In this document: positions 1,243 to 63,813 of the stretch, piece by piece | How the letters are laid out: the number at the start of each line of letters is the position of its first letter | Position numbering within the stretch: the stretch's first letter is position 1 | Source: Rhynochetos jubatus | Taxonomy: Eukaryota; Chordata; Aves; Eurypygiformes; Rhynochetidae | Assembly (NCBI GenBank): GCA_027574665.1 | Contig: CM050666.1 | Span: 6,014,001 to 6,078,000, forward strand | DNA: 64,000 nt | Direction: 5' to 3' | Notes under the pieces: generated by a model | Told to the model about the DNA's origin: nothing | Seen by the model: the letters and a program-made list of their open reading frames with translations, nothing else | Database searches by the model: none | Translations under genes and position numbers: made by a program

Positions 1243-27248
<26,006 letters not shown>

Positions 27249-27680: not shown

Positions 27681-30199
27681 CTGCTTGGGGAGCTGAGGAT
27701 GAGGCAGGTGGGGTTCAGCAGCTTCTCAGTGCTGCTGTTGAGGGGCAGGTAGGCCCTTGACCAGAGGTGTGGGAGCCCCGGGGATGTCAGGGCAGGCATT
27801 TTCCTTGAGGGGGGGCAGACACAGTACTGTTCTGCAGTGAGGTGTCAGGCAGGGTGGTGCAGCAACGTCTGTTCTAATCGGCTGTCCCTTGTCTGGATCC
27901 TGGCGGCACAGAGGGGATTTCATAGAGATTATTTGGTCTCCACACTGTTAGGTGCATCCCTTGATAGATGCATAGATGCCACATTACCGGGAAGTAGCTA
28001 ATTACCATTTTCAGATGGTGGTAGGGGGGTAGTTTCATAGGGTGAATCAGCAGGGGAAGAATTCCAGAGTCCTGCCACTGTGTTTCCTCATCCTTGGTGC
28101 TTTAGGACATGGTCCTCTTGAATGACCCAATTACTTTATATTTGTGATTGTTTATTTTCCTGACCAGGCCTAAATGAAGTCTACAACACCTTCGTGTCAT
28201 TCTGCTTTTTTCAGCACAGACAGCAGTGTGGTACCTGTACAAGTATCTTAGCCGTACACAGGCAAGCCTTTTATTTTTAGATATGTAGAAGTTGAGCAGA
28301 GATTCAGGTTCAGTCCTCATGTAATATTACCAGCTCACTGAGTTGTTGAGATGGACATATATCCTGAGATAACATCGTGGTAGGATTGGCAGGAAGTAAA
28401 ACCTCAAAGAGGGTGGGATTTGTTCCTGCTAGGTGCTTTGCTGCAAGCATTGCAAGAGCCCTTAGCTTTGATGTCTAACTGCACCCCACTGGTGGGCCTG
28501 ACTGACAAGTTTCCCCAGAGTGATTCAGGATGATTCAGAGGTTAAGGTGGAGTTAAATGAAACACACTTGTTTGTAGTGTATATTAACAGATATTGACTG
28601 AACAGGTTAATGATCTGGCCTTGTCTACTCTTTCTCTCTGGAATTAAAAGTAAATACGTGGACCTTTAACTATTTTAAAATTACTTTTATCATGTGTTTT
28701 GTTCTTACATCTGGTGTTTGTTTTTAAACATCAGATAATACATCGCATCAAAAGATGGTACAGACTGCACTCACTGAGGAACAGAACATACTTCCCAAGG
28801 TACTGCGCTGTGCTAGGCCTGTGCAGGTGAGCCGGGTCAAAGGGTGGGATAATACCACAGTTATTCTCTTAGCGAGTGAGAGAACGGAGATCTTAGGGCT
28901 GGAAAACATAGAATCACAGAATGGTTTGGGTTGGAAGGGACCTTAAAGCCCATCCAGTTCCCACCCCCTGCCATGGGCAGGGACACCCTCCACTAGCCCA
29001 GGTTGCTCCCAGCCTCATCCAGCCTGGCCTTGGACACTGCCAGGGATGGGGCACCCACAGCTTCTCTGTTGCCCAGAGAACATTTGTTCAGGGAGCACAG
29101 GAAGGAGTGAGCAATGTAATGCCTCCTGTGATCAGTTTAGTGGGAGACATAACACCTCAGCAAGTGTTGGCGATCTAGTGAGGGAACTCGCCAAATGCAG
29201 AGGTAACCAATGGAATCCGTGTACCTGCATGCAAAAGAAGCAAGTGGGGAATAAGGACTGAATCATTAGGGAACGCTACATAAGGCAACAAAAGACATCT
29301 GGGAAAAGTGTTGGCAAAAACACATGAAGCAGAGAAAGCACTAAGAAAATCCAGAAGATGAAGAAGGAAAACAAAACTAGGACAAAGACTTTTTTTCTCT
29401 AGGACGTTTGGAATAGTCAGTTCTTTTTTGAACAGAAAAAATGAAAGCATATTAGCCATTCTCTATCAGATCAGTTCAGTATGCACACTTCTGCTTCTAT
29501 ATATGAAAACGTGTCTTTTTCCCTGCTGTAGAACAGATGATGTTAATCATGGCTGCTGCAGAGTAATTAAGAGGTAATATTCCAGGCTGAGTGTTAGAAA
29601 AGAGGGAAATAAGACAGCTTGGATGAGACTGCTGTGAGAGAATGGAATGAAGAGGGTCAAGAAAGTCAACAGTGTCACAGTTCTGAATTCTTAGGGAGGC
29701 AAAGGAGTACTTTTTGTTTAAAAGTCTCACTAGAGAAACCATTATCACATGAAAAAATAAGGTAAGAAGGTCTCTGATATTCTGTAGAGAGATAGGTACA
29801 GTAGCTTGGACAATTCACTTAGCTTTAGATACCTTTTTTGTAAGATAGATGCAAGTCTTACCTATCTCCTGAAAGCATATTGGTGCCTTTTGAAACAGGA
29901 GAAGGACAATTTATTTCAGAAACAGAGGCTTACATTTCTTCCTATGTCTGCTCATAGAAGAGCAGAAAATGCACAGATATTTTCCGTCTGTGGATAGGAA
30001 TAGGACACTGGCCCTTTCTCCTTCGCATACAAGGACATATCAACAGTTTGGGTTTTTTTCTTAAATCTTTGTTTATCTTTGTTGATGCCTAAAATCCCTT
30101 TGTTATCTTCCAGAAGCTTAGGTCATCACTGTGGAATTCCTGGTATGAGAAGGCAGAGCTTCAGGGTAGAGAGAGGATCCTTGCTGAACTGCTGTGATC
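27681..30199. other. Intergenic region between PISD and the transferrin-like gene
   Basis: Contains a short CR1 copy at 28907-29068. The last kilobase before the start codon at 30200 should hold the promoter and 5' UTR of the transferrin-like gene. I see no convincing TATA box or CpG island there, so tissue-restricted rather than housekeeping expression is likely. An untranslated upstream exon cannot be excluded. Confidence 0.5.
28907..29068 (-). repeat. CR1 LINE, very short 3' fragment
   Basis: Starts with two copies of the terminal octamer (catagaat, cacagaat; ATTCTRTG on the element's own strand), followed by the conserved CR1 3' UTR. It is truncated after about 160 bases at cacccacagcttctct. 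Confidence 0.93.
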
Positions 30200-33100
30200 A
30201 TGAAGATAGTGGGTTTAATTGTCCTAATCATCTTCACTTCGCTGTCTTCAGGTAAGGCGGATGCAGAGAGGCAGAGAAAGGTGACCTCTGGATGGGTTAG
30301 CAGGATATACCCTCTAATACATGCTTTGGGCTAGTTTTCTTCTGTGCAGAGAAGCTGCAGCTAGAACTGTGTCTGTGATTTGTATTTGCTTGTATTTTTC
30401 CTGTTTGATCATTGGCAGATGGTGACCCTGTTAGTTTTGAAGCAGCTTGATGCACTAGTTTCTTAGCAGTTTAGTGAAGGTTTGTTTCCTTTGAATAGTT
30501 GGGATCTGCGCACTCGTTAATGCTGTCAAAATGAATCAGTGTGTTTCAAGCTGCTCGCTCTAAAACCACAACGGGTTCTTGTTGGAATTGCACTGAATTA
30601 ACATCAAAACAAGTAGGGTACTAATGTCTGATGCTGTGCTCAAAGAAATAAAAACTTCAATGATTTAATTGTAAACATTATTTATTCCAGGCCATATTTT
30701 TTTAATAGATCGCCAGAGAGCCAAATGCTTAAACATCTGGAAATGACAATGGTGGAGATGTTGTAGTGTTTTCTGTGCATTCAGTCCTGGTTTTCATTAC
30801 ATGGTATAAGAGTCTCTCAAGTTACGTAACTGCATGCTATTCTTATATATAATAATCACTTTTTTTCCTCCTTAAATGCTTAGTATCTTCTTGAGGTGTA
30901 CATAATGATATACTTCAGAGTAGAAGGCATTTAATAGGAAGAATACAAATAAGTCGTAGTACATCCAAGATGGAGTAATTGGAGCCTAAAGCAAAAGAGG
31001 AAATTTTGTTGACATGTCTGGACTACTTAGGATGTGGCTTCATAGTCAGTTTAAACCAACCAAACCCCCGACTTCCCCTGGAAAAGGAGGTTTCACCTTC
31101 TCTTCCACTTCTAATTGCACCTTCCTTCTTTCTCCTGGCACTGTGTTTTTGGGTTTTTAATTGATTACTTAGCTTTCAGCTGGTAAAAGATCTGACAAGC
31201 TGAATAGTTCATTACCACTACATATTTATAGTGTTCTGTGCAGGTTATTTAATCTCTTTGTTTGGCATCCAGAAACGAAGATATTTCTTGCTAACTTCCT
31301 GCTTGGACGCGGTAGGATTGCAAGGACTTTGTTGTTAATACTTACTCAATACCCTGTTCAACACAGCGCATGATACTTCATTGTCAATACCCAAATTGTC
31401 CCTGGTTTCTGTCTCATGGTGGGTGTTGTCATGGAAGATAAACCTTTCTGCCTTGGGGGAACTGCAGCAAGTTACTTGTCATTGCTGAGGCAACACCTAG
31501 ATAGGACGTTGTTTAAAAACAGAAGTCACAGAATCGCCGTCGTAATTTCAAGTAGTCCCAGATCCTCACACTCAGATTGAAGGATTTGGTTTATTTCTAT
31601 TATAAAGTAGCATTTAATTGTGAACTTCTTCCAATGTAAAATTTTCATGCTTCTCTGATCTAAGGTTTTCTGACCCTGGAGCTGTGATGTGGGTCTTATT
31701 TAAAATCAGGTAGTCCTTGTCTGGAAGGAGAATGGGGAGGAAATGCTGCTGTAACAAAGTGTGCTGCTCGGTGGCAGCATGTAACTCAGTGCTGTGAGAC
31801 AGACGGGACTTGGAACACCGGTTATTGTCTGTTTAGAAAACAACAATCCCCTCTCTGAAGACTCAGTTCAACAAAGCTAAAGCAACTTGATCCCCTACCA
31901 ACCTCCTCCCTTCACAATTCTTGTTCTTTTGCAGGCTTAGTTCTGACTCTCTAGAGCTTGGTAACAGAAATCTTGGTATGGCTGAATTATGGATGGGGAT
32001 ATGTGCGTATGAAAGCACCGAAGGAAAGAGCAGAGCAAAGGTTAAACGAGTGGCCTGTATTGATAACCAAGGACACAACTGACAGCAATAAACCGATAAA
32101 CCCTGGGGAATGCATTGTTTACATCAGGAGCAGAAGGTCTGTGCTCTGATAAGGTCACATCACAGTTGGCCTCTTAGCAGTCTGATAGCAGGGAGATGGT
32201 AACAAGGTTACCCTGCATTGTAAGTGGCTATCCAACTGGAAAACAGACCATAGCCATAAAGGTGTCCTCGCCTTTGTTTCCTCATTTTGGGTGGCAACCT
32301 TGCCTAAGGTTCATGGAGGCTGAAGCAAGGAAGATTCTGAGGCAAAAGTTTATGCCGTAATAGTTGTTGATGCTTGAAAAAATCTACCTAAAAGCTAATA
32401 TGGTGCAGCCAGTCAAGAGGAAGCAGAGAGATATAATACAGTAAAGGCTCCGCAGCAAACACTCACTGTCCTCCACGTGGGGCAAAAGTTGTCTTGGTCA
32501 GACTGCTTGGGCACATGTATGTGGGTATGTGAGTGAGGAAGATGAACTTGTGAAGCTAAATAAATGAAAATAGCCTCCCTTTTCACTAAATCCTACAAAT
32601 CTTGTCTTGTTTCTTGATCCTACAGGGAAGAAATTCCGATGGTGCACCCTTTCTGACCTAGAACAGAGAAAGTGTGCTGAACTGTCCAAAGCACTCATGG
32701 CTGTGCTGCCCCTTGCTGCTGTCAATTCGTTTGCTAGGATTTCTTGCATCAGAGCCCACAGTACCTATGACTGCATTGATAAAATCAGGGTGAGTCCACA
32801 GGGGTTTTTAGAATTGATTTGGAGTCCAAATCCTCTTTTGAAGATGTAACTGGTAAACGTAGTAAACAGAAACCATGGGAGAGTGAAACGATGATGGTAT
32901 TGCATACCTGACAAAGTACACAGTAGCTTGCAAATAAACTACTAAATTACAACTTCCTCAGAGCATTCCTCTTGCTTGTGGGTTTTGGTCCTCCTGTGAC
33001 TATAATGAATATTTTCTCTTCCCTTTCTTCCCTGCCAATTTTAGTCCCTATTCAGTCTTTTCTGAAGTAGAGTAAAGCCTTTTTTCTGGTATAAAAATCT

Positions 33101-36100
33101 TTGATTTGAATAAAATTAGACAGCAGACCATTTGCATGTGTAAGGTCTTGTAACTGACCAGTTCTGAAATGAAATTTTCATAATGCTATATGCTTTGGAA
33201 AAAAATCACTAATGAACAAGGAAGCATTTGCTGTAGAATAATTTCATTAACATACCTGAAACTTGATTTGGATAGAGAATTTCAGTTTCCATTTTCATTC
33301 AGTCCCAGTTGCCTTCCACGGAGTCCAAGTCTGACTGGGAAAATACAACCAAAGAAAACCTTTCTTGTTGGTTCAGGGAATAATTTATTTCATGTTTTCA
33401 TTCAGTCCTGCAACCCTTGTTAACAGTCTTCAGTTCCACTTTCCGGGTTATGGAAAGATGATAGCCAGGAGAACTCTGTAAGGTTTGGGGTCTTGGGGGA
33501 GCTGTAGGAGGAAATAGGAATTGCATTTTTCTTCAGTTGGCATCAGAACTGGGGTTTGGAATGGAAGTCCCAAAGAAGAGGTGAGAAAGGATGCTACTGG
33601 AAAAGAACAGGTGTTTTTGGAGGTAACTCAGCCTTCATTGCTAACGTTTTGCCATGCTTAGTAGCAGGTCTTTAATTAAAAAAAAAAAAGCAAATGCTTG
33701 TAAAAATCACTGGTTACTACTTCTCAGGCAGAAACTCTGCTCTTGAAGCTTCTCTGTTTCCCTTTAAGCACACTTGTTTTGAGAGTTTCGCTTTTTCTTT
33801 TTTTTAAGGTGAATAAAGCAGATGCTGTCTCCTTGGATGCTGGAGATGCTTACTCTGCTGTAAAGCTATATGGTTTGACAGTGGTGGCAAAGGAGATCTA
33901 TGATCAAGGTATGTTCATGAAGGGAAATAATAAGCTGTACTTCTGATTTGGCTAATAAACTGTTCTGCAGTAGCTCAAGCATTCTTAAAGTCTATTAACT
34001 TTATAGGAGTATGGAGGTGACTAACAATTGTCCCTAAGATATTTAGTGATGATGAATAAAATACCGGTGGTGCTTTGTATGTGGCAGCCTTTCTGCCTGT
34101 GGCACTGTCACTATGACAAATTGTATCTACCCTTGCCCACAGCACTTGTGTACTGGAGTTCTACATCTTACAGGGAATAAGAAGGGTTTTATTCCGTCTG
34201 TGTCAGTTCTTACACCGTGCTCTTTACTAGTGTAACTGAATGTTTACTAGCAGTTATTTAAGAGATTAACTTCTCTTAGAGATTAACTTCTCGTATGGTT
34301 TCATTCTCTCCTCCTCACCCTGAAGAGACAAGAATATAAGTTGTAGTAGAATCTTGTTATGGTAAGATACCTCTTCATTCCTGGCAGACCTGAAGAGTCT
34401 GTGCAATGAATGATTTATAAGGTGAGAATACGTAATTCTGAGCCAAAATCAAGTATACGGTAGAAAATACTTGTGAGACATGAATCTGAGAAGGAAGCTA
34501 AATTAGCAGAGGGATGCAGGAAGAGACTAATAAGGGAATTGTATGGGAACAGAAGTGAATTTTGTTTTGGCTGAAGAACCAGGATATCAGAGTGGAATTG
34601 ATGTGTTTCAGGTGGTGAGTATGTTCTGAGGATAAGACATAGGAGCTTTTTCCGGTACAATACCTAAGCTGCGTGATAAAAGTGTTCCAAACTCTTGAGA
34701 AGCAATTGCATTGGATGGTGGAGCCAGGTGATCTCGTGAGCCCTTTCCACCAGTTCTTTACGTTCTTGCTTTGCACATCACTTGCATCGCTCAGTTTGAC
34801 ACGGTGCAACGTAGCAGTCTAGGGTAAAGTTCCTGGCATGAGTTCCGTGTTTCATATGCCTAAGGTTTTTTTTCCTTAGCCATGCTCACAGAAGTAATTG
34901 AACTCCTGCACACAGATGGAAGCTGCAGAACTGGAATTTAGTTATTTCCGTTACATTTTTTGTCCTGTTGCAGGAAATTGTGTGTTTGCTGTGGCCGTTG
35001 CCAAACGAGGAACTCTGGATATCCAGAGGCTACGAGGTGCACGCAGCTGCCACAACGGAGCCAGATGGACATCAGGCTGGAATATTCCACTGGGCTTTCT
35101 CCTTGCAAGAAATGATCTTTCCTGGGATGAGGCACAACCTCTGAGCCAAGGTGGGTGACAGGAGCCATAGGGCTATGTCTCTGCCCTGAGCTACAGTGAG
35201 CGAAATGCAAGCGGATGTAGGATGGACTGGGCTGTGTGGAAACCGAAGGGCTTTGTGGATGAGATCCTCTTGGAGTGTTTTGAATATGGGCTCTTAGCTC
35301 TCTTCAGAACTTCCCTAGTGATCTCAGAGCAGCAGAATTCTTACCAAACCAGGAAATCTTTGTGTTCTGCATGCGACAGGGAACAAACGTTTGCAATATC
35401 TGCTGGCACAAGAATGGTTTCAACAGAGCAAAGTTGGATCACACACTTGTTTCCAGCAAATGTTTCAAGTTTGAAGTTTAGACAATGAAACTGCATTTGC
35501 TGTTTTATTTATTTTTTTTAAAGCACCATAGTCCCAGTTATGCCCATGATATGTTTGGCCCTTTTTCTTCCATTTTTTCCCATTTGACTCCCTTTCTTTT
35601 TGTCCTCCCCACCCCCCTCTGCAGCAATCAGTGAGTATTTCAATGCAAGTTGCATCCCTGGTGTTGGCATTGCTGCTCCTCGACTGTGTGCTCTCTGCCA
35701 AGGACAAAAATCCTACGTCAGAGACAAGAACCACTTCTGTGAGACAAGCAGTAACGAACCCTTCTATGATTCTGAGGGAGCCTTCAGGTGAGCGGTGTGA
35801 CACTCCACTGAATTTACCTTCAGGGCAAAAGGAGTTGTGAGGGAGGAAGAGCCAGGTGACCTGTTAATAGGATGGCATTTGTCTTCCTGCAGGTGCTTAA
35901 AGAATGGAGTGGCAGATGTTGCCTTTTTAGATCATCTAACCATTGTGAGTGCCACAGGTAATCCTACAAATTCAGATTCCTTTTAACCTCTGGCTGTGTT
36001 ATTTTCTGAATGGGAGTCTGGGGGATATGGCTATATTTTTGTTGTTTCCAGGGAAAATGCAATCCCTGCAAGCGGTTCATTGATATTTCTTGGCTCTCCA

Positions 36101-39100
36101 CACAAGTCGGAAAGAGAAAAGGAAAGGGTAAATGAGCTATAGTCGCTCACAGGAGATTCTTAGGATGGGAGCAGACAGATGTTTTTGCACAGGTGATTTA
36201 TCCAGCTTAAAGTCTGTGATGCAGCTGTCAGTATTTGCATTGCCTGAGTTACAAGATTCCTTTTAAAATTCAGTGCACTGAGCTGCTAGAAAGTTCAGTT
36301 CCCATATACCCCTTCTGTGTTTTTAAACTCAGTCGAGCTCTGTTTCAATGTTTTTGAAAGTGGTTAGTAGGAGTATTTGCCGGTAAGCATTTTTAAACAA
36401 ACATATTTACGGGGATACAGGTCAGAGAGTATTTTGGCATACTTCTGGCTGAGGTCCCTCTCTTTGTTAAGAGAAGAGCATACCAAAGACAATTTTCCCA
36501 AGTGCACTTGGTGCACTGTGCTGCTTGCAGGGTCTTTAAGCAAACCTCCTCTGAAAAACATATTACCTTCCATCTCCACCTGCTGCCAAGCCATGTCTCA
36601 CTTCAGAGATTCACGAGTGTCCTGTTGTTTCAGAGTCAGAGCAACAGGAGTATGAACTCTTATGTCCTGACGGGACTACAGCTGAGCTGACTGAATACAG
36701 CACCTGTAACTTGGGCAAGGGGCCTGGCCGTGGCATCATCACCCGCCACAACTTCCAGAAGATCACCAACAAATTTCTTGCTATGATCCAAGTGAGTGGA
36801 CGTTATAAGCTGTATATTTCCAGGTACAGGCTTTTATTCCATCTTTGTGTGGAGGTCACCACCCAGTTTGCCTTCTTTCTTGAGAAATTTATAGTTAGTG
36901 TGAAAAAGGACTACAAATCAGTTGTTCTGGGAAAGGATTCTGCACTGGTTTCTGGCTGAAGGTTTTACTGCTCTCTAAACCATTCTTCTGTAGAAGGCTG
37001 GGATAAATAAGTAAGGAAGGGGAAAACGCCATAACACCCAAACTGGAAAATGGCTAACGGTGTTCACCCTGCCCTGGAACGTATGTGAATTCTTCTGTAG
37101 CTGAGGGAGATGCTTAGGTTCAGGCAGGCTTCGCCTTTGTTCCTCTCTCTTTCTGAACTTATAAATACTATCTGTTATCTTGACATCCAGGAATCTATTT
37201 GAAGCTGAACCTGAAATGCATATTTAAATGCAAATTTAAAGAATGTGTGAAGCTATCCAGCCCTTACAATAGCCCAGCAGACAGTGAATAATTCAGCCCA
37301 GTGGGCTGGGCTGTGCTGTCATGCAGACTCTGGCAGACAGCTGTTGTACAAAATCTGTTACTGAGAGATCTTCATATGCCGTTGCCAGTGCACCTATTAA
37401 CACATCTTAGCTCTGTTCCCGCCCCCCCAGCAATGTTCCTAGTACACTTCTCAGTGCTTTCTTTTCCAGCACCATCAGGCGAAATAGAGCTATGTGGTAC
37501 TTCCCCATCATAAAGCACAAGATATCGTGCACCCCATTACTGCACTGATCTTTATCACAAGTGTTTCTCACTCAGCTCTGCTCTCTCGGTTGCTGTTCCA
37601 GGGTAGGAGACATTGAGCACAGCCCAATAAATCTGAATAACTAAGAGGAGAAAAAATTCTTCAGAAAAGTGAATCGTATAATGCTTTTAGGTCTGGAACC
37701 AGCCACTTACTGCAGTACCAGTGTGATGGAACCAAGTGCTATGTTACAGACCATCGACATGAAGGGAGGGAGGATGAGGCTCCCTGTTACTGGAAGGTTT
37801 AGCAGGTTTGTTGCAATTAAAAGTGTTGTTCTTGTCCTAGCGCCTCTTTGGGCGAAAAGGAAAGGAAAGAGCCAGGTTTGAACTCTTCACTTCAGCACCC
37901 TTTGGAGGAAAGAACCTGCTGTTCCGGGATGCCACCCATCACCTGCAGCTTCTTGAGGAGCAGCTAGAGATTGCCTACGTCCTTGGTCTGGATTATGTAG
38001 CTCTCCTTAAGGGACTTGGCCATGAAGGTGAGAAGGCTTCCAGGGGACTGTAGCTAAGGAAAGAGAAGAAAAAGTTCCTTTCCTTGTTATTCCTCCCTGC
38101 AAGGCACAAGTGCATAAACCTAAATGTCCCCTTGGCAAGGAACAGATTGGTGCATAGGTGACATGAGCTCACTGTGCTCCTTCCTTCTAACGCAGGGAGC
38201 TCTTTGGACAACAGCGTTGTGCGCTGGTGCTGCATCAGTGATGCTGAGCTTCGCAAATGTGAGGAGTGGGCACTGAGCATCAAATCCGACCCATTAGTCT
38301 GTGTCCAAGCAACTTCCATGACCAAATGCATCGAAATGATCAAGGTAGGAGACTCCCTCTGGTCAGAATATATGACAAGGCTGCACAGGGTGTCTATGTC
38401 CTTGTCTCTGTTGAATAAGAGGAAAACCAGCTTATATGCTAGAGGAACTGGTGGGAATGAGAGGGAATTTATGCAGAGGAATTTCTAACCAGTGAGGAAG
38501 TACAACTGCTGGGTTGCACAATTAATGCAAATCCTGGTTTTGTTATGTTCTGTAATGCTGTTGGCAGAGTAGCGAGGCTGATGCAGTCACCCTGGACGCA
38601 ACACACGTCTACATTGCAGGGAGGTGTGGATTGGTTCCTGTCGCTGCAGAATGTTATGGTAAGTTCTCAGGTGACCTTAGCATAAGGGAGGGGATCAAAA
38701 AACTACCATTAAAAATACAGTTAAATTTCCACAGATGTTTGTGATAGAAGCAGGAATCGATATATATGTCCAAATACTCTTCCCAGCTCTTCCACTAACT
38801 GGCTTTAGCACTCGGTCTGGCTGTTCATTACATCCCTTCTGTAGAAGGGACAGAGATGCTGGCATGGCTCAAGAGGATTGCAAGGTTTTTGTTGGGGTGC
38901 TGCCATGTAATGGGAATGACAGCAGTTACAAGATCTGTAACGGTTGTCTCTTCTCTCCAGGCGGAGATTGTGCCCTGGCTGCTAAGAGCACGGAGGAAAC
39001 AGGGAAACTAATTCATCTTAAGCGCAAAGGTAACAGGACAACTTTGAGAAAGCAAGGAGTTCATGTTTTCCTGAGGCTGCTTCTAGGGTTTATGTAGGAA

Positions 39101-42100
39101 CGTATTTGCCTGTTCGTTTGGGAAAGAAATTGCTGTGCATCTTCAGTAGGAGCTTTACAGATAATGCTGGGAAGCTGGGACAGGAGCTTTGGGCAAAGCA
39201 AAGAATGCGGATCTTCCACTGAAACTGAAGATACCATGACAGGATGTCGGAGGGAAGTGGAGGGCTGTACCTGTGCAGAACACTTCATTGCCTTGGTGTA
39301 ACTGTTTGTTGTCATTGTTTTACAGCACTGCCACCAGTTTATGCTGTTGCCCTAGCTAAGAAAAACGCCAAACAGATTAACATCCATAACCTTAGGGGAA
39401 GGCGATCCTGCCACAGTCACCTGTATAGTCCTGGAGGATGGTTACTTCCTTCCAGATACACAGTGGGAGCTCTGGACAATGATACTGGGAACTGCAACCT
39501 TGGCTCTGGTAAGGGCTCCTCTGGGTTCTGTTGGCTAAACCATGGAAACCTGAAGCCCCAAATTTGGGAGTAAATGGAGAAGGGGCCATGAAGATTTGAC
39601 CAGCAGGTGATGATTGCAGTCTCAGAGGGTGTTGAAGCAGCTCTTCCTCCTCTCCAACTATGTGAGATTCATCACACTATTTAGCCCTCTTCTTGGTAGC
39701 TATTAGGATGGAATTCCATTCTTGTCTTTGCCCACGTGTGAAGATGCTTCAGAATACCTTGCCCTAACCTCACCTCAGTTTTCTCTTCTCAGGTTATCAG
39801 CATTACTTTTGGAAGGGCTGCATGCCAGGAGCAGATGGAAACCTGTGCAAGGTGTGCATTGGAGACAGCGAGGTGGAAGGGGCTCGAGTATCCAGCAGAT
39901 GTGCTGCAAGTCACAACGAACATTACTATGGCAATATGGGAGCACTCAGGTAAGCCTTTTGCCAGTCAGATATTCAGAGCAATAACCAGAATTGGCTTAT
40001 TGTTTTGCTGGTGGTTTTCCTTGGAGGTTTGTGAGGATCTTTTTTTTTTTTTTTTGGTTAAGCAACTGGCTGTATAAACTTTTGCTAGCACATATTTTGT
40101 TTTGGTTGCAGTTGCTATGGGATATTCAGCTGAGTGGTGATTTAAAACAGTCATAAAACCATTTCCAGAGCAAGACAATGCTTCCAAACATGTACAGCTT
40201 AGAGCATTGGCACTGACTCACTAAAGGGAAGGGATGAAAGATAGAAGGTCAGAGAGCAGAGGTGATGTCGTAAGCAGCAGTGGAGGGCACAAGAGGTAAC
40301 TAAATACACTGGAGATGTTAAACCACAGTTGAAGCAGAAGCAAAGAAGAGTATTAAGGGTGAAAGCACTCTCACAGAATAGATATAATGCATTTAGTTGC
40401 GTTACATTCTCTTTCCTGGCTAGGCACAGGTGAGGCTGCATGGGCATTGTGCCATGATTTTGCCTTGGGAGCTTCTTTAAGGGATGAAAGGGGTTGTCTC
40501 ATCAAATACGTGAACACTGTCCACCACTGACATCACTAACTTGTTCCATGTAGCCACCAAGCAATTACAGATGAGGGGGATACTTCCAGCTGCTCCTGTT
40601 TTAGCTTCAGATGACTGTCCAAACGTCAGTCATCGTCTAGTGGCTGTCTCTAACTCGTTTTTTCCTGCTCTAGGTGCCTAGTTGGCAATCCCAGTGGAAG
40701 AAGCTTTGGTGACGTAGCTTTCCTGGAACACTCTAACCTGCTCCAAAACATACAGAGTGAGATGCAGATATTCTCTTTTCCTTTGAAAATGTTCATTAGT
40801 GTCAGTTATTCCCACACAGTGACCATCACTCACGAGGATCAGTTTTTACAGGTTTAATCTAGGTCCATGAAGTTGTGTTTGTGACTGGAAAATTGCAAGA
40901 CCCTTCCTGCATGTAGTTGTTCCAGTAAAGCTCAAAATTCAGATACTGTTCGGTTTTAGAGAGGAAAGTGGAGGAATCACTGAGTGGAAGGATCAAGGTG
41001 TGCGCTGGGGGTAATCCTCCTTGGAAACTGCGCTAATTTTTGGGAAGCTCAAAGCTTTAAAAAGCAAGTGACTTTTCCCACCAGACTTTCTCCCATAGGC
41101 AGCCGTAGTGCATGTACCCGTTGGTTTTAAACAGTTTCAGGAATGAAAATGGCAGGTAAGGGCAATGCTCTGGGCTGTTCGTGCTGGGAGATGTTCCACG
41201 GCTTCATCCTGGCCTGGCAATTTCCTTGTGTTGTTTCACAGGCACTTAGGAATAAACAGTCTAGCTAAATAGGTAAAAATACTGCAAATTATTTTGCCTT
41301 TCACAGTTTCTAAAACAGCATTGTGAAATGTTTAAATTCCTCTGGGAATTTTTTCTTTGCAACAGTAGCAATCGGATTTTGCTGATGAAAATGGATTTGG
41401 TTACAGTAGCTTAAAGCCCTTCAATTACTTAAATTATGCCTACTGCTCTAACAGACAAAATATGCTGCCTTTTCATAGCGGCAAAGAGCTTATTTGCTGT
41501 TTGCCACTTTATTCAGCCTGATAAAGCACACTGGAATTCTAATTTAGGCAATTTCAGTAACAGGAGAGACTTTTCTAAGAGAGGAACCTCTCCAAAATCA
41601 AGTTGAGGTGTAAGGGCCTGGAAACCCACAGGGATTCATGGAGCAGTGAGCTGTTCGGGGAAGCAAAGGACATGCAGGCTGAATAGCTTTGTTTCCAGAA
41701 AGCCATCTGATTACAGACGAAGATGAGGCATGAGAAGCTCTTCGCATGCCTTGATGTTACTCTAGTCAATAGGTGCAGCTTAAGTTCACGGACCTGTTTC
41801 CTCAGTGAAAACACTACCCCGTTCCTCATGAACGACCTCATGGCATGCTGGGGTTTTTAACATACTGACCAAACTTCTTCCACTCATTTTTTAATATTTT
41901 GCATGAGATTCTCCTTGTCTTCTGTCTTCATATTTTAACAGGATTTGCTGTCACTTCATCTTCTTTTCAGATCTGGACAGCTCTGGTTGGGCAAAAGGTT
42001 ATACCCCTATTGACTTTGAACTCTTGTGTCCGGACGGAACGCGGGCTGCAGTCACAGAATGGACAGGCTGTAACCTTGGCCCCGTTCCCCCCAGCACAGT

Positions 42101-43504
42101 CATGACCCGACCAGTCGCTGTCACTAAAATCTATGACTTTCTAATGAAATCCCAGGTAAGGCAAGAGAAGAGGGGAAAAAGCATGTTATCGCTTGTTACC
42201 TATGACTGCTGAAAGCCCTTTCGTGATCAAAAGCTTTATATACTAAATACATAAAGTGCTTTCAGGTCCAATAGGAAACAAGAATGTGCATAGGAGACAG
42301 AGAAAATAATTACTTGGATTCTCTAAAGGGGCACTTTGGCAGCAGTTGCCGTTCCGCAATGGTCATTAAGCCACTGCAAAACTGCATCTTTTTGTACGAA
42401 TAAGGGCAGTACTAGGTGAAAGTGGAACCTTTTTTCTGCTGGTTCTTGCTACAAAACTGAGGGTCACCAGCTTAGCCTTGCTATTTGTGATCCAAGCGGT
42501 GAAACCTAATTTCTATTCTGTTTAGGAATCTCTGGGAAGCAAAGCGGATTCTGAATTCCATCTCTTTCAGTCGAGGAAGTATGGTGAAAGTGATCTGCTT
42601 TTCAAAGATACTACTCAGTTCCTTGTTCATGCAAGTCACATGAGCTACCAGGAAATTCTTGGAGTGTCTTTCTTTCAGTTGGCAGAGTCAGTGTTTAATT
42701 GTACACCTGCAGGTAAAGTCAAGTTCTTAACTCTGAGTTAGAGAAAAATGCAAAGCAGGAAGCGTTCTGTGCATAGATGTTGCCCTTTTGTGTAGACTGA
42801 ATGAAGAAGTATGTTCTACACAATCCTGTTAGTAACCGTTTTCCAAGTACTGTGTTTGGAGCTCCTTTACAGCATCTTACAACTCCTATCCAAAAGCACT
42901 GAAACTGGAGCTTGGCGGGAGCAGTGACATACTGCAGAGCAACACGAGGTTATTGAAATGGGACTGGTTTATTCCCACTCTGAAATTTTTCCCTTCAGTT
43001 CCAAAAATGAGTTCTGGCAAAGGGAATATAATGTTCATTTGAATATGCCAAACTTGGGGAAAAGAGAAATTTTATATTTAATTCTTGAATTAACCTCAAA
43101 ATAAGTTAAATTATTTCCTGTTAAACAAGAGTGCACTAGAGAAGTCAAGATCAAAACCGTTATAAACATGGCTTTTTCATTATTTTCCACTGAATGCTCT
43201 ATGAAGTATACATTTAGCTGTCACTAAAACTGTCTATGAGCCAGGGATAGGCTGTTTTGGGATCTGAAAATCCATATAGAAGTAAACAAAGGTTACACAG
43301 TAAGTCAGACTTCTGTGGGTTTGAGTTGTTAGAAAGCTGAAATTCAAAAGGGGAATTTTACCTCTATTCTGCTGTTTTATTGAATAGCATCTGAACAATT
43401 TGTTATTTTTAAAGCTGATAGCATCTTTAAGCGTATACTCTTACTCGTTTGTAGGCATCTTAGACTTCTGCAAACAGGATATCTGTGCATCCGCATCGAA
43501 CTGA
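30200..43504 (+). CDS. Secreted transferrin-family protein, non-iron-binding type (739 aa, 17 exons)
   Basis: Exons: 30200-30251, 32626-32789, 33809-33908, 34974-35150, 35625-35787, 35893-35957, 36634-36791, 37841-38027, 38196-38344, 38568-38658, 38961-39029, 39326-39508, 39793-39949, 40674-40756, 41971-42155, 42526-42712, 43455-43504. Every junction is GT-AG and every phase fits; the frame is open throughout. The exon number and pattern are those of vertebrate transferrins. Signal peptide [18 protein letters not shown]-lobe about 20-350; C-lobe about 357-724; a short Cys-containing tail (FCKQDIC) and no hydrophobic GPI signal, so it is secreted. Transferrin landmarks include [55 protein letters not shown] and FELLCPDGT. 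The iron-site Asp is kept (Asp82, Asp415). The other ligands are replaced: V109, S214, R273 in the N-lobe; V463, N567, S641 in the C-lobe. The anion-site Arg is W137 and S493. The nearest relative seems to be saxiphilin. The ligand is unknown. Confidence 0.93.
30252..32625 (+). other. Intron 1 of the transferrin-like gene
   Basis: This is the longest intron of the gene (2.4 kb), following the signal-peptide exon. Transferrin-family genes usually have such a separate first exon. No repeat or further exon was recognised. Confidence 0.6.
33909..34973 (+). other. Intron 3 of the transferrin-like gene (site of the saxiphilin insert)
   Basis: In frog saxiphilin two thyroglobulin type-1 domains are inserted between the residues encoded by the exons flanking this intron. 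I looked for a plus-strand frame with the hallmark Cys-Trp-Cys-Val and found none in these 1065 bases. The flanking exons join in phase without it (YDQ-G-NCVF). The intron therefore appears to hold no domain insert. Confidence 0.6.
35151..41970 (+). other. Introns 4-14 of the transferrin-like gene
   Basis: The larger gene-free stretches are introns 4 (35151-35624), 6 (35958-36633), 7 (36792-37840), 10 (38659-38960), 13 (39950-40673) and 14 (40757-41970). A 17-base T run lies at about 40041-40057 in intron 13. I found no CR1 copy, RNA gene or extra exon. Exons 4-17 carry the rest of both lobes. Confidence 0.55.
42713..43454 (+). other. Intron 16 of the transferrin-like gene
   Basis: It separates the last lobe exon from the 50-base final coding exon. 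Nothing else was recognised. The last exon begins after tttgtag at 43454 and encodes the Cys-containing tail and stop. Confidence 0.6.

Positions 43505-49025: not shown

Positions 49026-63813
<14,788 letters not shown>

Follow-up and report, generated by a model that had tools for sequence, protein, structure and literature searches.

How does a transferrin serve its bearer once the residues that hold the metal have gone? Transferrin is the textbook iron carrier, and the question is raised by a gene in a 64,000-nucleotide stretch of the Rhynochetos jubatus genome (GCA_027574665.1, contig CM050666.1; C21:6014001-6078000 in our numbering), here called the window, in which 17 exons on the plus strand encode a two-lobed transferrin relative with iron and carbonate sites lost from both lobes. 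Taken as a whole, the evidence is probably best explained if this gene belongs to an old subfamily, known as M-like, whose iron sites have been dismantled and whose product would bind a conserved partner without the help of a metal.

The gene and its iron and carbonate positions

Splicing the 17 exons yields 739 codons with one terminal stop; every intron is GT-AG, the frame is preserved across all junctions and both ends, the start at 30200 and the end at 43504, were confirmed as exact, giving a gene of 13.3 kb. This reproduces in full the structure that an earlier sequence-only reading of this DNA had described (17 exons, GT-AG introns, matching phases, 739 open codons). The product matches the Pfam Transferrin family (PF00405; 480 bits, E 4e-144) in two stretches, which are the two lobes. 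Its N-terminal 18 residues, judged by eye, form a plausible signal peptide, and the protein is probably secreted.

The window protein was aligned with chicken ovotransferrin, human melanotransferrin, frog saxiphilin and the TF and MELTF of the same genome, the last two assembled as chains of tblastn pieces. At the six critical positions its N lobe reads D V N W S R and its C lobe D V S S N S, which leaves 2 of the 12 iron and carbonate positions kept, Asp82 and Asp415. Of the iron set in the N lobe (Asp, two Tyr and His) only the Asp survives, as D82 (codon 33836-33838 in exon 3, 33809..33908; codon positions were derived by hand from the exon table), the Tyr residues being replaced by V109 (34982-34984; exon 4, 34974..35150) and S214 (35771-35773; exon 5, 35625..35787) and the His by R273 (36729-36731; exon 7, 36634..36791), while the Thr and Arg that hold the carbonate have become N133 (35054-35056) and W137 (35066-35068), both in exon 4. 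The C lobe has likewise retained its Asp, D415 (38595-38597; exon 10, 38568..38658), with V463 (39337-39339; exon 12, 39326..39508) and N567 (39933-39935; exon 13, 39793..39949) in place of the Tyr residues, S641 (42093-42095; exon 15, 41971..42155) in place of the His, and S489 (39415-39417) and S493 (39427-39429), both in exon 12, in place of the carbonate Thr and Arg. The same alignment carries its own positive control: the TF of this genome, with all 12/12 positions intact, and chicken ovotransferrin both show D Y T R Y H in the N lobe and again in the C lobe, which excludes an alignment error as the cause of the apparent loss. Human melanotransferrin has its N-lobe set intact and its C-lobe set incomplete, and frog saxiphilin has lost both. 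All residues named in the sequence-only reading fall into the columns it had given them, and its claim that the ligands are gone from both lobes agrees with the alignment to the TF, MELTF and saxiphilin controls. To judge from these residues, the window protein almost certainly does not bind iron tightly at two sites.

The remaining exons are exon 1 (30200..30251, with the start codon and the signal-peptide-like stretch), exon 2 (32626..32789), exon 6 (35893..35957), exon 11 (38961..39029), exon 14 (40674..40756), exon 16 (42526..42712) and exon 17 with the stop (43455..43504); exons 8 and 9 are described below with the linker.

Spread, relatives and age of the replacements

A first protein search gave 675 matches within E 0.001. 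The best 120 of these are all birds, mostly near full length, that share 85-95% identity with the window protein across the aligned part (93% in turaco, 92% in potoo, 88% in guineafowl) and carry names such as melanotransferrin-like, serotransferrin-2-like, TRFE2, TRFEB and similar. When the query was padded with X, which limits candidates to those of at least about 725 amino acids, the best 120 of 242 comprised birds, then turtles, crocodile, squamates, salamanders, caecilians, frogs, lungfish, sturgeon, bichir, gar, teleosts, sharks and chimaera, the lowest at 58%; the best 120 of 222 in a third, length-filtered search reached down to 57%. Among the matches listed, identity over the aligned part spans 57-95%, and all are jawed vertebrates, lamprey and hagfish lying outside the coverage. 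The gene had at first been described as an avian member of the transferrin family; the family stands, but the gene is not bird-specific, being present across jawed vertebrates. No mammal is found among the best 120 of 242 or the best 120 of 222, at a length of at least about 725 amino acids, a filter that a short or broken mammalian copy would escape. With matches from sharks and fishes still at about 1000-1100 bits, a mammalian ortholog of full length should have surfaced.

The replacements were counted in three sets of sequences. In the bird set (121 rows, the window and its best 120 bird matches) Asp82, Trp137, Ser214 and Asp415 occur in all rows and Val109, Asn567 and Ser493 in 120 each. 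Among 111 rows (the window, 108 non-avian sequences and two birds) Tyr stands at no Tyr column, Asn567 and Asp415 are present in all 111, Ser493 in 107 and Trp137 in 105. The third set of 123 rows (the window, P0122-P0237 and six birds) shows Asn567 and Asp415 in every row, Asp82 in 121, Ser493 in 118 and Trp137 in 117, and Tyr in none at columns 109, 214, 463 (two rows gapped there) and 567. By parsimony, the change in the C lobe would have been complete in the common ancestor of jawed vertebrates. Constraint was gauged by amino-acid distance on proteins, not by the ratio of nonsynonymous to synonymous substitution (dN/dS): the distance between the window protein and that of guineafowl is 0.13, as against 0.30 between the TF of this genome and chicken ovotransferrin, two pairs that span the same split if the window bird lies outside the fowl, as its best matches suggest. 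In this single comparison the window gene appears to change about half as fast as ovotransferrin. Because the same replacements recur across jawed vertebrates and change is slower than in ovotransferrin, the loss of the ligands is old and maintained, rather than a decay.

The trees contain few references, with two MELTF rows and with ICA and lactoferrin left out. In them the 24 sampled M-like rows form one clade (support 100/100) on a long stem (1.35; 1.14 in a second tree), with short inner branches whose order roughly follows the species and leaves five forks open; under the midpoint root, cartilaginous fishes stand beside lungfish and tetrapods (87/99). The second tree, which omits saxiphilin, a long branch, again separates the clade from TF and MELTF at 100/100. 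A long-branch warning applies where TF, MELTF and the M-like clade join, their order there being open, and it extends to a tree in which the lobes were split. In that tree the N lobes of the M-like proteins group with those of TF (85/86) and their C lobes with the C lobes of TF (99/96), a grouping that, on few references, favours one shared lobe duplication.

We file the window gene under the M-like subfamily, which we believe to be already described: in 2014 Hughes and Friedman reportedly recognised it in bony fishes, reptiles and birds, by odd yet conserved residues at the carbonate site and a basic, lactoferrampin-like region, and are said to have suggested a role in host defence. Their paper (Immunogenetics 66:651) is among the references of PMC6826671. 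The window gene shows the separate clade, the conserved carbonate-site replacements (W137 and S493, counted above) and the basic region; the clade found here adds two sharks, a chimaera, lungfish and amphibians. The same authors reportedly argued for separate lobe duplications, with which our lobe-split tree disagrees.

Among solved structures, melanotransferrin is the best sequence match (441 bits; ovotransferrin 406, ICA 381). Nevertheless, the window gene falls outside MELTF in the trees, on which ground the identity was rejected; this genome has its own MELTF on another contig, and human MELTF retains an N-lobe iron site where the window gene retains neither. At the C terminus, where a melanotransferrin has its GPI-anchor signal, the residues of the window protein, QDICASASN, are non-hydrophobic by eye. 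With ovotransferrin and serum transferrin it has the two lobes and the cysteine pattern in common, but these have the full ligand set, of which it keeps only the two Asp residues.

Saxiphilin likewise has lost its iron sites and shares Cys at columns 108, 729 and 734 with the window protein, but forms a separate clade. Its saxitoxin site includes Glu541 and Asp795 (PMC12022044). Of the 16 M-like rows checked, 16/16 carry A, T or V at the Glu541 column and 2/16 carry D at the Asp795 column; a Pfam search found no thyroglobulin type-1 domain in the window protein, and none is listed for the matches shown. These absences, together with the separate clade, excluded saxiphilin as an identity. P0158, P0160, P0166, P0174, P0217 and many more fish rows are annotated as saxiphilin or saxiphilin-like yet lie in the iron-site-free clade. 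The five named are among the 16 checked for the toxin site, and saxiphilin-like is a misnomer in the rows tested.

The otolith matrix protein (OMP), a transferrin relative in fish otoliths reported from Atlantic cod, is described as one-lobed and lying beside Senp2 and Tra2b, two genes that are linked to TF on chicken chromosome 9 (PMC3125230). The window gene is two-lobed and lies in a neighbourhood resembling PISD and PRR14L, and OMP was rejected as its identity. Cods seem to have both, since Pacific cod (P0217) is in the M-like clade.

A few rows are peculiar in themselves. P0138 has 734 codons on a contig of 3,067 bases and P0207 has 731 on one of 2,500 bases, and the two group with squamates and with grass carp; given the length of the window gene they look like spliced transcripts or retrocopies. 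In P0205 (Siganus canaliculatus, 978 amino acids) the transferrin is combined with a sirtuin domain (PF02146); annotation may have merged it with a gene next to it.

Conserved features and candidate functions

Across the 123 rows, 201 columns are at least 97% uniform. In 98 of them every reference that is not gapped has the same residue, and in 31 no reference has it (at least four of the five references compared). Of these 31 columns, 8 lie up to residue 353 and 23 beyond, and they cluster: 12 fall in residues 344-390, a count equalled in 0/5000 permutations, and 7 in residues 344-356, equalled in 1/5000. The most conserved 15-residue stretch of the whole protein (0.963) is the linker between the lobes (37985-38027 at the end of exon 8, 37841..38027, its last codon finished in exon 9, 38196..38344), where the references vary among themselves. 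Mean conservation is equal between the lobes (0.742 in N, 0.747 in C); among the birds alone, conservation is higher in the N lobe (0.954) than in the C lobe (0.927). Two cysteines, Cys108 (34979-34981) next to the former Tyr at V109 and Cys368 in exon 9, are present in 123/123 rows; at column 108 TF and MELTF have Ser and saxiphilin has Cys, and column 368 has A, V or T in the references. Set against the disulphide map of human transferrin, both presumably are without an obvious partner. Residues 270-312 (36720-36791 in exon 7 and 37841-37897 in exon 8) form a basic stretch with a net charge of +4 to +11 (mean +7.8) in 123/123 rows, compared to -3 to +3 in the five references.

The sequence-only reading had held that the gene is constrained for another function, and the sharing of this loss by orthologs all the way from birds to sharks supports it: a conserved function unrelated to iron is very probable. 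The three roles it had put forward, small-molecule carrier, ICA-like inhibitor and matrix protein, are treated below as candidates. In the explanation we favour, both lobes would have lost their iron and carbonate sites before the living jawed vertebrates diverged and stayed without them since, and the protein would act without metal as a two-lobed binder of a conserved partner of the animal's own. Binding might proceed through the strongly basic N-lobe stretch together with a remodelled C-lobe cleft (D415, S493, N567), the near-unvarying linker setting the two lobes against each other. A literature search covering titles and abstract openings plus some passages returned no study of the function of this gene.

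Several observations weigh against this explanation and should be considered together. In the N lobe, column 273 holds Arg in 116/121 birds and His in the other 5, and across the 123 rows it contains nine different residues, His among them in 4, while Thr is found at column 133 in 3/123. Column 137 has Arg in two sharks, chimaera and lungfish and Ser in two sturgeons, so that the N-lobe change is not common to every lineage, and the Arg-to-Trp replacement is, as aligned, absent from cartilaginous fishes and lungfish. The slow change stems from one comparison, in which the own TF is a chain of tblastn pieces, and in the basic stretch residue conservation (0.705) falls below the N-lobe mean, the charge alone being kept. 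The predicted model, of the potoo ortholog (P0010, 92% identical to the window protein, folded with 48 others), is middling, with a mean predicted local distance difference test (pLDDT) of 76.6 and a predicted template modelling score (pTM) of 0.57. Over about 315 residues its N lobe superposes on transferrin N lobes, 1iej (a holo form) included, at 1.9-2.1 A, and its C lobe fits solved transferrins at 3.1 A over 333 residues; whole-model fits of both lobes are poor (root-mean-square deviation about 16 to 22 A, mostly about 21 A). The predicted lobe arrangement is unreliable, lobe placement and cleft geometry are unreadable from the model, and a lobe that looks closed in the prediction should not be taken as evidence of a closed protein. 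Finally, action through a conserved endogenous partner, for which slow change and the clustering of uniform columns are the arguments, is a proposition on which our doubt slightly outweighs our confidence.

Among other explanations, the protein could be a carrier of a small molecule or a non-iron metal in remodelled clefts, as saxiphilin is for saxitoxin. The cleft replacements at N567, S493 and D415 are conserved as counted above and the invariant C108 adjoins the former Tyr, but the saxitoxin-binding residues and thyroglobulin domains are missing and the N-lobe His column varies freely, and we regard this role as rather unlikely. A little less likely still is a host-defence protein whose basic N-lobe stretch acts on microbes like lactoferrampin of lactoferrin, iron being irrelevant. 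The charge kept in every row speaks for it, and Hughes and Friedman reportedly made the same proposal; yet the stretch is less conserved than the linker and lies outside the eight most conserved 15-residue stretches, the whole protein has an unremarkable isoelectric point (pI 6.1-8.3 across six M-like rows, 7.2 for the window protein), and slow change, in the one comparison made, is unlike an arms race with microbes. A mineral matrix role has a structural transferrin relative of fish otoliths as its model (PMC3125230); lobe number, locus and the apparent presence of both genes in cods count against the window gene being OMP and not against a matrix role as such. We think this role improbable. 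For an enzyme inhibitor, mammalian ICA would be the precedent, a relative of transferrin whose iron sites are weakened and which inhibits carbonic anhydrase, but ICA scores below both melanotransferrin and ovotransferrin among solved relatives, and such a role is very improbable. A decaying relic with residues drifting unconstrained, to which the loss in both lobes might point, is hardly credible given the intact frame and splicing, the same replacements in 123 rows from birds to sharks and, in one comparison, slower change than in ovotransferrin; a pseudogene is excluded by the intact frame and the conserved replacements.

Genomic neighbourhood and significance

The surroundings suggest that the gene is flanked by PISD and PRR14L. 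On the minus strand, an open reading frame at 1519..1983 has a phosphatidylserine decarboxylase domain (PF02666, 49.5 bits, cut-off 22) and is probably PISD, the gene name being deduced from the domain. Also on the minus strand, the frame at 49026..49325 is probably the C-terminal part of PRR14L, with a sub-threshold Tantalus match (PF15386, 30.8 bits, cut-off 32.8), and an open frame of 1946 codons at 55482..61322, which had no Pfam match at E 0.001, is probably a large exon of the same PRR14L-like gene. On human 22q12 PISD and PRR14L are presumably adjacent, without an intervening transferrin, an arrangement that would fit a loss in mammals.

Genome-wide, 22 exon-sized transferrin matches were found, 19 on C12 and 3 on C21, the latter all inside the window gene. 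The C12 locus at 6.51 Mb is taken as TF because of 79% identity to chicken ovotransferrin over 647 positions, and that at 9.09 Mb as MELTF because of 64% identity to human melanotransferrin over 679 positions. In this MELTF (9.08-9.10 Mb; L011, L012), the His of the N-lobe iron site is replaced by Arg, while in the C lobe Asp has become Gly, the first Tyr Lys and the His Gln, replacements by which its iron binding may be weaker than that of human MELTF. Elsewhere in the window, a 177-base element occurs in three direct copies (86-262, 10426-10602 and 28963-29139, the later two 94% and 67% like the first) and looks like the end of an avian CR1-type repeat, and short tandem repeats lie at 16191-16282 (48-base unit) and 21621-21682 (24-base unit).

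Names in the databases (melanotransferrin-like, serotransferrin-2-like, saxiphilin-like) hide the loss of the iron sites and can mislead. In a study of salmon gill, a down-regulated saxiphilin-like gene is counted under toxin sequestration (PMC8202022); the salmonid entry of that name in the M-like clade, P0174, may or may not be the same gene. The linker and the conserved cleft residues offer concrete sites at which function can be tested. Kept from sharks to birds without an iron site in either lobe, this relative indicates that the transferrin fold carries an old function unrelated to iron, one that seemingly is missing in mammals. It is conceivable, though we consider it unlikely, that jawed vertebrates inherited a third, iron-free transferrin system, in which the clefts are a new conserved binding site served by a rigid linker and two extra cysteines, and whose partner or ligand was given up by mammals. 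If this were true, finding the partner would bring to light a circulating or matrix pathway that human biology lacks.

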